Assembly (NCBI GenBank): GCA_025526935.1
Contig: JAHLKD010000070.1
Coordinates: 124,001-188,000, forward strand
Direction: 5' to 3'
Source: Cladochytrium replicatum
Lineage: Eukaryota; Chytridiomycota; Chytridiomycetes; Cladochytriales; Cladochytriaceae
DNA length: 64,000 nucleotides
The position numbers and the translations under genes were made by a program. Shown here in pieces: positions 37,375-41,948 of this stretch. How positions within the stretch are numbered: the stretch's first letter is position 1; each line of letters opens with the position of its first letter. The notes beneath the pieces are model-generated. The model had not been told where the DNA came from. It did no database searches and was given only the letters and a program-made list of their open reading frames with translations.

Positions 37375-38405
37375 ACAGATTTTGATGACAGAAACGATTT
37401 CGTGACGTGCATCACCAGAAACAAAAGTCTGAAGCCGCTCAATTGGTGGGATTTGAATCAAAACCATCAAATGTTTTCATTTCACGCGGCGAAAATGATA
37501 TCGAAAGTACCAAAAGTCAATAGCTTGGTCAAACACTTGAATCCAACATTTAGGTTTACTCGGAGGAGGGTGCAGCAACCTCGGTGACGTTGTTGTCGTG
37601 GTTCTGCTTGTGCACTGGATTGCACACTTGGTGACAACTTTGTCCATACAGAGTGTCCCACCAGTAGTTGACGCAGAGACTGTCGAGGTTTCCGACTAGC
37701 TCCACACACCAATGACATGCAGCTGCATAAACAAATCTTTTGTAAGACCTTCAACGCACTTTCACAAGCTGTGACATACGTTCAAGTGGTGCACCAAGGG
37801 TGCAAAGATCATGCTCACAGGGCGGAGGGGTGGCGCTAGGATCTTTGGTGGTACTGGTTTCGTTTGTAGGGTACCTTGCTTTGGTCATTGCAGGCGATAT
37901 GAGAAATGTTTGCGAAAATTTCTAGTGTTCTTACCTCATGCGCGCAACCTGACCGGGCGTAACCATGGATGAGCAGCTGTCACGACCGTATTCCATAATG
38001 TTCTGGAAACGATTCAACAATCTACATGCTTTTCAAATAATCGGCAGGTTTCTTAAGTCTACTGGGTCCAATTGATCGTGACAAGAATCGCGAACCGAGC
38101 AATCCTCAGCAGGAATCCTCTCGTATGGAGTGTCATCACTTCCTTCTTCTGGTAGAGAGAAATAAACAAACGTAGAGTGTTCCGTCCAGTGCAGAGTAGA
38201 TCGGTTTTTGCAGAGAAAGACCTCAAATGTATGGTAAAGCCCTTGGAAATGTCCAACCTGACAATGGGGCGGATTATCAACACATTCTTTATAAGCAAGA
38301 ACTGAATGCCTCATGAACCATCGTTACTCCGCTATTGTGCTGAGTCAGGTAGCCATTTGCCAGCGATGCGATGTTGAAAGCAACTTTCAGTTTGCATGTG
38401 TTAGA

Positions 38406-39548
38406 ATAAGATAATGTAAAAGGACGATGGCCTCTCAACAATCAGTTACATGGACTCAGCTGAATTGTACGAGCCGTGGGTCATCCGTGCGTTCCACAAG
38501 ATCGCACTTCCAGATGCCCATGCACGCGATTCGGCAACTGGAAGAATCCTCACAGACGTGGTGTCAGTTTCAATTCATCATAGGAAATCAAGATCAAGGA
38601 CTCGTCTCCTCACCATCCAGATTATGTGCCGTGGGACAAAGCAACGAAGCGCTTTGCTTATCCGGAGATTGGTATTGGAATGATTTGTATGCCAATATAC
38701 TGAAACACTCTTTCTGTTGCGCGCTTCCAACCTACCCACTTTATCCTAGGTGCCGATCCTGGAAAAGGGGACATCCGATTTACAGGCTCCCAATTCCAGG
38801 ACACCTGTACCACTCACTCCAAAGGTCAATTTCTTGTACAGCTTTGCCGAGTATTATCAACGTGCAAACATCAACTTGGCGAGAAAGTGGCGGGAATGGC
38901 GACTGGCAGAGAACCTGACGATGCGGCAAGCCCAGAGCTCACGTCCTTCGCTGGTCACCACAAGCCCTCAGCAAGTTGACGCGGGCATTCGTTGGCTTGT
39001 GCAATACATTGAGGCAATGCTTGCACGCTACACCACCTTGAACGTTCACGCGGAATGGCGCTGGCGAGTCTACCAGTCAAAGCAGCGAGAAGTGGAGCGA
39101 GCGTGTAAGGCTTATCTTTGAAACGGTTGAAGCGTACACCTCGTCATGGTGCTTTCGATGCGCGATGGGGGAGCTGAATGAGGAGCCTCATCAGTTGCCC
39201 AGGCTTGTCCACCCATGTGTTTGCTTTGAGTCTGGTTGCCCGTTGAACCTCCCGCACTGCAAGGATCGAAGGCCTTGGCACTCAGACGACGACTGCAGTG
39301 ATCCATGCTACCACCGACCATGGAAGCTTCTGGACTGCCCAGGATGCCATACTCGGTGGAACAGGGATGTGTGTGGAGCCATGAATATCTGACTGATATT
39401 CATGCACTCCAATTAGCACCGGGGGGATCGGCCGTAGATGTTCAGGCAAAGTGTTTTTGTATGATTTTTTGTTCCACCTGTTTGCTACGAAAGTCCCCAA
39501 TTCGGGTGATCCGTCCAGCAACTCACATTATAATAAATAAGGTAATGT
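38406..39548 (+). mobile_element. Fanzor (eukaryotic TnpB-like) element, decayed, inside protease intron
   Basis: On the strand opposite to the host gene, 38735-39392 encodes pieces of a Fanzor/TnpB-like RuvC nuclease. ILGADPGKGDIRFTG (near 38750) resembles RuvC-I. A linker segment reads AEWRWRVYQSKQREVERACK (near 39055). LIFETVEAYTSSWCFRC (from 39111) resembles the RuvC-III approach and first zinc-ribbon Cys pair. LLDCPGCHTRWNRDVCGAMNI ending at 39392 gives the second Cys pair and the RDV..A.NI active-site motif. The three segments lie in three frames, and the expected RuvC-II stretch between the linker and TVEAYTSS is missing, so the copy is inactive. A near-identical 12-mer, ATAAGATAATGT / ATAAGGTAATGT, lies at 38406-38417 and 39537-39548 and may mark the ends. 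Frames from 38427 and 38450 are unassigned. Confidence 0.65.
39381..39403 (+). other. Hairpin at the 3' end of the Fanzor reading frame
   Basis: ATGAATATC, loop TGACT, then GATATTCAT: a perfect 9-bp stem with a 5-nt loop that overlaps the last codons and stop of the nuclease frame. TnpB and Fanzor guide (omega) RNAs start at or near the 3' end of the nuclease gene, so this could be a leftover of the guide scaffold. The hairpin is seen; its role is inferred. Confidence 0.4.
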
Positions 39549-40342
39549 TATTGAATCGCTGTTTTTGTCATGAAGTTGCGCTCGGAGGTGCAACATAGCA
39601 CGTTTCTTGCACGCCAGTTGGCGAATGCGAACATACTTCCATTATCGAGAGGATTTCCAGAGAACTCGCTTGGAAAGTGCTGTATCCCTGAAGACGAACA
39701 TCCGTAACATTCAATGTGTAGATATTGAGTATTCTTCTCCCATGTTCAAACGAACATCCGTAAAGTTTGATATTGAGTGTTCTTGTGCCTCCCACGCGAA
39801 GTTGCCGCTTCATGTGGGTTTGGAATCCACTTCCTTCGGCTCTTGGATAGTTTTGTGAGAGATTGACAGCAGTCATTCCGATTATACTTATGCATTCTGG
39901 AGCCAGCTGTGGCCGCGATTCAGTCCCGCCAACTTGAACGTGAATCAAGTGTTGAACTTGGCCAGATACTGGTTAAGGACATTCGCCTTTTTTTTGAATG
40001 TCTTCTTCAGGGGTGTGTCCGCCAGACGTTGTAGTCTGTTGTTTCAATTTCAAACGTGGTTGGACATAAAGTCCAATAGGCGTACATGAAAGGCACGCAA
40101 GTCACCTTGGTACATTGCATGGATGTAGATAGGTACGGTGACATTCGTGACTGGGAAACCTGCAAATTCGAGCAACGTTTGACTAGCGGTTAGAGGAAAA
40201 TCCTTTAGAGCAGCTTCGAGAGGAGAAGTACTAAAATTTTCATCTCCGAATCGAATTTATTGTGTAGATAGAAGGTGCATTGCTCGCGTGACCCTCTTCA
40301 AGCTTGTTAGATGACCTTCAACTTCAATTCTCATAGTTTGAT

Positions 40343-41948
40343 CTAAACAGTAGATGCTGTGGACTTGACAGCAGTGGATGTAGTTGTCTTTCCAGCCGTG
40401 GTGGTGCTGGGACATTGGATTCCGCATTTGGTTCCAACTTTTTCGATACAGTATCTGTCCCAAAAGTTGTTGATGCAGAGAATGTCGAGATTGCCCACAA
40501 GTTCAACGCACCAATTGCAAGCCGCTGCGAACGCATAATAGTTCAGTACATGCTGACCCCAGCTGCATAAAAGGATACGCACGGTCTAGCTTAGGTCCGA
40601 AGGTGCACAGATCATGCGCACAAGGCGGAGGGGTAGCAGCAGGGTCCTTGGTAGTAGGGGTTTCGTTGGGCGGCACGGGAGAATTGTTGTTTTGCCGGTA
40701 ACTGGAACGAGTCATGACCAGTTAAGACATATTACATGCAACCTCCTAATGAAACTTACGTCAGCCATTGCTGCTGCATCCGTGTGACTTGCCCAGGAGT
40801 AAACACGGCATCACAATCGTCTGCACCGTAATCCATGATATTCTAGAACAGAACAACGTCAACATGTCTCATTGCCTTTCTGCCGTTCAGTCTGAGTTTA
40901 CAGTCACGGGATCCATCCCGGGCTGGTCGGGACAAGAATCGCGGGGCATGCAGTCCGTCGCAGGGGTTGCCTCATAAGGAGTGTCGTCAACTCCGTCGCC
41001 AGGGGCCAGGCAGCCGAACTAGAAATGCATGTGTCAGTTCACTGCAGGTGCAAGATCAGGAACAATTGAATTTACCTGGAACGTGTGATAAAGCCCCAGC
41101 CAGTGACCCACCTGAAGCAAGTTTTCATTGAGAGTGATATTGGTCGCATTCAGATTGATACTCACTTCGTGCACCATCGTTGTACCATCGTTGTGCTCAG
41201 TAAGGTAGCCGCTCGGGAGCGATCCGATGTTAAACACAACTTGTAGCATTACACGACTGGTGAACAAAGAGATTGGAGGGATCGTTGCGACTTACTTCCG
41301 TCGTCAAGAGGATCTCCAGCGTAGTGGTCTGGGAAAGTGCTGTACCCTTGAAGACGAACATTTGTAAAGTTGACCGTGTAGATGTTGAGAGTACGTGCGT
41401 CTCCAACGCGTAGCTGGCGCTTCATATGGGTCTGGAAACCGCCTCCCTCGGTTCTTCGGAGAGGAAGCTTCAGACCAGATGGAGTGGTACCAAATGCCTT
41501 CCTTACGCATTTTGAAACCATGCAGCACTGTTAACACGGTTGAGCCCAGCCAATATGAACGAGAATCCCGTTTTGAAGTTGGCATGGAACGTGTTCAAAA
41601 TGCTCATTTGTTCCAAGATGTCCTCATCTGGGGTATATCCTCCGGCTTTGGTATTGTCTGTATATGCATAGGTTGAAGCACAAGGGGTAAACTGTCGGCA
41701 AACATATGCAAAGTACCTTGGTATGTGGCATGGATATAAACAGGAACGGTGATGTTTGTGGTTGCTTCCTCAACTCGGAGCTGGGAAAGCCTCGCCATTG
41801 TTGATTCCACCTTTGCTTCGTTTGCACGAAAGTCCTCCAAAGAAGGAGTTGAGGAGCCGCATCCGTACGGTTTCGAACTTTGTGCAGAGCTAAAGCCCAA
41901 TAAGGCGAGTGTTCCAGCAACCAATCCCACGACACTTGTGGTCCTCAT
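40343..41948 (-). CDS. Secreted M43-type metalloprotease with C-terminal Cys-rich domain (copy B)
   Basis: Starts ATG 41948 with a signal peptide (TTSVVGLVAGTLALLGFSSA). In order: NITVPVYIHATYQ, ILNTFHANFKTGFSFILAG, THMKRQLRVGDARTLNIYTV, GYSTFPDHYAGDPLDDG, the zinc site VHE|VGHWLGLYHTF (HEVGHxxGLxH, split by an intron), DDTPYEATPATDC, and the Met-turn NIMDYGADDC with TPGQVTRMQQQWL. A Pro/Thr linker follows, then a Cys module (CVELVGNLDILCINNFW ... KVGTKCGIQC) and a Ser/Thr-rich end that suggests O-glycosylation. About nine exons; all checked phases agree. Pappalysin/cytophagalysin-like (M43) proteases are expanded in chytrids and degrade extracellular protein. No lesion was found, so this copy looks functional. 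Confidence 0.85.

Follow-up and report, generated by a model that had tools for sequence, protein, structure and literature searches.

What has been inserted into an intron of a protease-like gene in Cladochytrium replicatum, a chytrid of the order Cladochytriales, and by which route could its relatives have been copied through the 50.5 Mb genome (198 contigs)? The locus lies in a window of 64,000 nucleotides, the whole stretch of DNA analysed here, and its features are collected in Table 1. With high probability the insertion is a dead copy of a mobile element bearing a Fanzor1 gene, and it has relatives at a large number of places in the genome. For the copying of this family, target-primed reverse transcription of the type used by LINE retrotransposons is proposed tentatively, its chances being rated below even.

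Table 1. Features of the insertion and of its host intron (window coordinates)
Feature	Position	Strand	Remarks
Host intron, protease-like gene copy A	38384..39636	-	Donor GTATGT at 39636, acceptor AG ending 38384
5' target-site duplication copy, AATAAGATAATGT	38405..38417	+	12/13 match with 39536-39548; adjoins element end
Element copy, very probably Fanzor, 5'-truncated and frame-broken	38418..39535	+	1118 bp of the ~3.5-3.7 kb family unit
Intron-like segment remnant of the Fanzor gene	38668..38720	+	~56 bp in relatives, ending TTCTGTTGCAG, before RuvC-I
RuvC-I aspartate codon (DPG motif in GADPGKGDIRF)	38755..38757	+
Internal-gap junction	39101..39109	+	Relatives have ~150-165 bp more: ...FIATLGG...DLVIAWGDAPVNRFQ...KARLALRVR...
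Candidate RuvC-II catalytic glutamate, Fanzor type (E-x6-CxxC, EAYTSSWCFRC)	39129..39131	+	Rule from the accessible part of PMC10711439
First CxxC of zinc ribbon (CFRC)	39150..39161	+
Zinc ribbon / RuvC-III, best PF07282 stretch	39270..39389	+	CPGC from 39336; catalytic-type D of RD 39366-39368
Shared 3' family end, ...GTCCCCAATTCGGGTGATCCGTCCAGCAACTCACATTATAAT and variable A/T tail	39481..39535	+
3' target-site duplication copy, AATAAGGTAATGT	39536..39548	+	Adjoins other element end

The insertion and its host intron

The boundaries first given for the element (38406-39548) fall on a near-perfect 13-bp direct repeat, which scores 10 against a maximum of 9 among 506 mismatched flank pairs. Nesting within an intron, as the earlier note had it, is borne out by comparison with the neighbouring paralogue (copy B), from which a GT-AG intron is predicted. 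The boundaries GGAA/GTATGT and GAAAG/TTG of copy A are the counterparts of GGAA/GTAAGT and ACAAG/TTG in copy B (~41242-41286; slashes mark the splice points), and each flank of the insertion, aligned to copy B on its own, matches it almost as far as these points. About 122 bp of the 1,253 bp host intron belong neither to the insertion nor to its duplication. The element is oriented in reverse relative to the protease-like gene, which is encoded on the minus strand. The naming of the host as an M43 protease stands in part only: a protease-like gene with a paralogue is present, while Pfam did not recover M43 from six short exon ORFs of this gene. The split HE..VGHxxGLYHTF motif of the gene presumably fits M43.

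The signature of a Fanzor1 gene

The peptides on which a Fanzor ancestry had been proposed are all encoded on the forward strand, with GADPGKGDIRF in the frame 38704-38979, the linker RWRVYQSKQREVERACK in the frame 38750-39121 and the zinc-ribbon peptide CPGCHTRWNRDVCGAMNI in the frame 39042-39392. The ancestry itself is supported by a curated domain profile and by the spacing of Fanzor motifs. When the ORFs of the region were compared with Pfam, the last of them, the zinc-ribbon ORF (39042-39389), matched the Cas12f1-like TNB / OrfB zinc-ribbon domain (PF07282) with 32.0 bits (gathering cut-off 26.3, E 1.4e-7); two of the other three ORFs were without a match and one resembled an unrelated family at E 0.081. 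Two further ORFs of the family scored 19.5 and 19.7 bits against PF07282, under the cut-off of 26.3. A genome-wide PF07282 profile search at E 0.001 came back empty, missing even the match in the window, and is thus uninformative on other Fanzors.

The published Fanzor1 rule, in the accessible part of PMC3627910, reads D-X(125-275)-[TS][TS]-X-X-C4-X(5-50)-RD, together with a conserved G and E (G500/E536, 36 residues apart). The window copy has TSSWCFRC ... CPGC-x5-RD, which fits the C4-RD part of this rule, and the distance from D to TS is 178 in the gene model BJ742DRAFT_775860 (P0002), within the permitted 125-275. The D-X-[TS][TS]-C4-RD pattern is found across the family, and not inside one open frame of any one copy. 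The spacing between G and E is 36 in P0002 and in the loci L046 and L051 and 35 in L042, with V at the G position in P0002 and K at the E position in L046; the window copy lacks the G. According to the accessible part of PMC10711439, DPG at RuvC-I is a near-exclusive Fanzor motif and the catalytic glutamate precedes the first CxxC by six residues; the window copy has both (GADPG, EAYTSSWC), while P0002 itself has DRG. The WNRD block is compatible with D606 of SpuFz1 and its neighbours W603 and N604, the catalytic residues of that protein being D383, E541 and D606 in the text available of PMC10432273. In a Fanzor structure this glutamate lies in a loop preceding the TNB domain, as described in the portion of PMC11423790 that was accessible.

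A repeat with an unrelated zinc ribbon that is TnpB-like by chance, rather than a mobile Fanzor, is highly improbable. The window's zinc-ribbon ORF alone reaches the curated cut-off, NCBIfam and PHROGs gave weak matches only, and no Fanzor outside the species was recovered by sequence, as such a chance likeness would have it. The curated PF07282 cut-off was nevertheless passed, and the independent RuvC-core motif spacings match the published signature; these spacings contradict a chance zinc ribbon, which was rejected. Relatives outside C. replicatum were found neither with the RuvC-part protein query (at E 1 or better) nor with the zinc-ribbon-part query (two candidates only), and PDB sequence searches, including one with a RuvC-part profile, returned no Fanzor among their matches. 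The lineage is divergent, and a word-based protein search may miss distant Fanzors. Two AlphaFold models (pLDDT 41 and 36) were too low in confidence for use of the fold. The window element is a further example of the known Fanzor1 kind and not a new system.

Losses and intron-like segments

The decay of the window copy, also proposed earlier, is evident from its truncation and from the spread of its motifs over several broken frames. It is without approximately the 5' two thirds of the family unit and a further 150-165 bp internally, a RuvC stretch which carries the conserved G in the relatives. The claim that RuvC-II is missing therefore holds for the region of the conserved G, while the Fanzor-type glutamate remains. 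All three candidate catalytic residues are retained, but in broken frames, and the copy is predicted to encode no working nuclease; it has probably been carried along passively in intron sequence that is probably spliced out.

Of 32 loci, 23 carry all or part of the RuvC segment that the window copy lacks. Among the nine loci without it, L041 retains the flanks on both sides of a somewhat larger gap, which may point to one common loss or to repeated losses. The edges of the gap share a short GCGTG-type repeat, so that the internal gap of the window copy likely arose by deletion between such repeats.

Two intron-like segments are kept in the genomic copies, one in seven loci (five with GTATGT) and the other in 15, the window included. 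The remnant in the window has AT in place of the donor GT and lacks the acceptor AG. The protein models P0003, P0010 and P0011 read as if the ~56-bp segment were removed, and to judge from their protein sequences other donors are joined to this acceptor side in P0004, P0006, P0007 and P0009. The status of these segments as introns is thus based on gene models and splice-like ends.

A genomic family of truncated and broken copies

A single DNA query gave at least 87 matches (self included) at at least 40 places among the best 40 of 86 candidates, and with the protein, DNA, upstream and 3'-end queries taken together pieces of the family were found at 85 genomic places or more. Identity to the window copy is 67-94%, and the many indels and stops of the copies indicate that they are old. 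The family unit spans ~3.5-3.7 kb, its 5' end being approximate; L003 and L053 reach furthest upstream, with 75% homology for 220 bp beyond L055:1481. The common 3' end pattern occurs in 24 of the 32 loci, 23 of which were aligned. In L055 (contig C47), the family sequence is preceded by 280 bp (L055:1200-1480) that recur at a single further place, C102:66869-67148, with a 91% match, and apparently represent a different repeat.

Different parts of the unit are unequally represented. With self matches removed, and among the best 40 candidates per query, matches are 8 deep close to the 5' end. Midway along the 5' query the depth is 13-23, and from position 200 of the window part onwards it is 25-32. 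In the matches listed for both queries, 3' parts occur ~3.5 times as often as 5' parts; a 5'-query match was seen at 21 of the 68 listed places with 3' parts, and 17 of the 38 listed places from the 5' query had no 3'-part match within 5 kb. When the twenty longer loci and the window were intercompared, coverage was highest in the 3' half and decayed upstream, with ragged 5' ends along the unit, although these loci were picked with the 3'-part query and 3' parts are thereby favoured by design.

The suggestion that relatives elsewhere in the genome could be active found no support: the search for intact copies yielded none, the 32 loci (of at least 85 places) being truncated or frame-broken and the ten NCBI gene models partial. 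These ten models, recovered by protein searches, are all from C. replicatum and are labelled 'hypothetical protein', an annotation that would gain from the present assignment. In P0002, a JAB N-terminal domain (PF01398, 35 bits), with BRCC36 as its nearest PDB matches, is joined to the Fanzor RuvC part; this model probably combines a host gene and an inserted element, or is possibly a chimeric gene. Variation among the copies is weakly biased towards third codon positions in the N-terminal block (0.092 vs 0.071/0.067 at the other two positions) and the C-terminal block (0.111 vs 0.066/0.074), and hardly so in the RuvC-I (0.073 vs 0.074/0.069) and middle (0.096 vs 0.092/0.085) blocks. No description of this Fanzor family was found in the open-licence literature, subscription papers lying outside the scope of the search.

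Possible routes of copying

In the tentative LINE-type reading, target-primed reverse transcription would have started copying at the 3' end of the element, the template being an unspliced transcript on which LINE proteins acted in trans. An intact Fanzor would be an RNA-guided DNA nuclease, which may have aided the persistence of the element, for instance through cleavage of sites that lack it. The ragged 5' ends, the excess of 3' parts, the target duplication in the window and the variable A/T tails are consistent with such copying, as is a genome with LINE frames and almost no Helitron enzymes. At least 150 reverse transcriptase matches were found in the genome (best 150 of 469 candidates), with endonuclease matches in the same long frames, such as the 1,109-aa frames with C34:232980-233714 (reverse transcriptase) and C34:234654-235016 (endonuclease).

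Long open frames, of 1,109 or 1,163 aa, that match both endonuclease and reverse transcriptase are numerous, many having the same score (e.g. C34:232980-235016), which suggests recent LINE activity. In the element family, a two-motif reverse transcriptase pattern was not found in ORFs of at least 120 aa from twenty 8-9 kb loci and the window.

Several observations count against target-primed copying. The 17 places with 5' parts only, among the matches listed, are contrary to simple 3'-anchored copying, and later breakage or the limits of the listing may explain part of them. The evidence includes no LINE with the same 3' end as the family. Sequences mobilised by LINEs are expected to be free of introns, whereas the intron-like segments are present in the genomic copies, an argument against a spliced mRNA as the template. 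Only the window copy has a clear target duplication. Scores of 6 or more were obtained for five of 22 copies compared to 21 of 462 mismatched pairs (binomial 0.0027, with a threshold set after the data were seen), while the summed scores of the 22 copies gave a permutation p of 0.079; this test left out L042 (3' tail misanchored), and L003 and L053 stand in it with further 5' ends.

One-ended rolling-circle copying from the 3' end of a non-autonomous Helitron2-like element, often stopping early, is possible but doubtful as an alternative. Bao and Jurka proposed this route for the Chlamydomonas Fanzor1 families CRe-1, -2 and -3, which in the accessible part of PMC3627910 are alike in their retained introns, 5' truncation, internal deletions, intact 3' ends and target duplications of ~7-19 bp, and a possible hairpin lies roughly twelve bases ahead of the 3' end of the Cladochytrium family. 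Against it, the Rep-helicase partner in the 50.5 Mb genome amounts to one 53-residue Helitron_like_N fragment and two PIF1 matches, and this partner may have been lost; no CTRR end was seen and the tail varies, none of the eight predicted pairs of the hairpin shows two-sided change (covariation 0/8), and the listed places with 5' parts alone count against this route as well.

Those same 5'-only places would be expected if the copies were old relics of another kind of element, a DNA transposon with or without terminal inverted repeats (TIRs), with the uneven depth arising from later breakage and deletion. This explanation is unlikely. The divergence of the copies and their wealth of indels agree with it, and Fanzor1 genes have been reported from many DNA transposon superfamilies (PMC3627910, accessible part). 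The preponderance of 3' parts among the matches listed speaks against it, and TIRs were not found in eight comparisons of the furthest 5' ends with the 3' ends, the longest exact inverted match being 7 bases. To return to target-primed reverse transcription, the fuller claim that LINEs drove the spread of the Fanzor family through this chytrid genome in this way is rather doubtful. If it is true, the gene of an RNA-guided nuclease would have been carried by a retrotransposition route and not by a DNA transposon.

Comparison with known Fanzor families

The comparisons below refer to the accessible parts of PMC3627910 and, for SpuFz1, PMC10432273. The CRe-1, CRe-2 and CRe-3 families of Chlamydomonas reinhardtii resemble the Cladochytrium family in having a Fanzor1 gene with introns, frequent 5' truncation and internal deletions, intact 3' ends and target duplications of variable length (PMC3627910). 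The ends of the CRe families match known Helitron2 elements and their insertion follows TTTT, whereas the Cladochytrium family has no Helitron partner that could be found, a variable A/T tail, a clear duplication in one copy and 5'-only pieces. SPu-1 / SpuFz1 of Spizellomyces punctatus is likewise a chytrid Fanzor1, with the D/E/D residues and W and N beside the last D (PMC3627910, PMC10432273). The SPu-1 element is bounded by 33-bp TIRs and by putative TA duplications, its gene is a single ORF and its copies are ~92% identical to the consensus, in contrast to the Cladochytrium family, in which no TIRs were found, the gene is apparently intron-bearing and the copies are older and broken. The MCi-2 Fanzor1 of Mucor circinelloides, a likeness by description, shares the common 3' part, the differing 5' parts and the want of recognisable TIRs, and its target duplications of 11-12 bp may be likened to that of the Cladochytrium family, but a 6-kb 3' region of its copies shows 99% identity (PMC3627910).

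The Cladochytrium family thus offers another setting, after Chlamydomonas, for asking how Fanzor elements that lack TIRs move. It is a divergent and apparently intron-bearing family with a partly LINE-like anatomy, in a genome that has many LINEs and hardly any Helitron enzymes.

The 3' end hairpin

The 3' ends of the 23 aligned copies allow a TTGCTG...CAGCAA stem to be drawn that encloses an inner CCC/GGG stem, for example at 39481-39523 in the window, where one stem base A stands opposite C. Rfam gave no match for the 3' end. The stem might serve as an omegaRNA scaffold or as a hairpin in replication.
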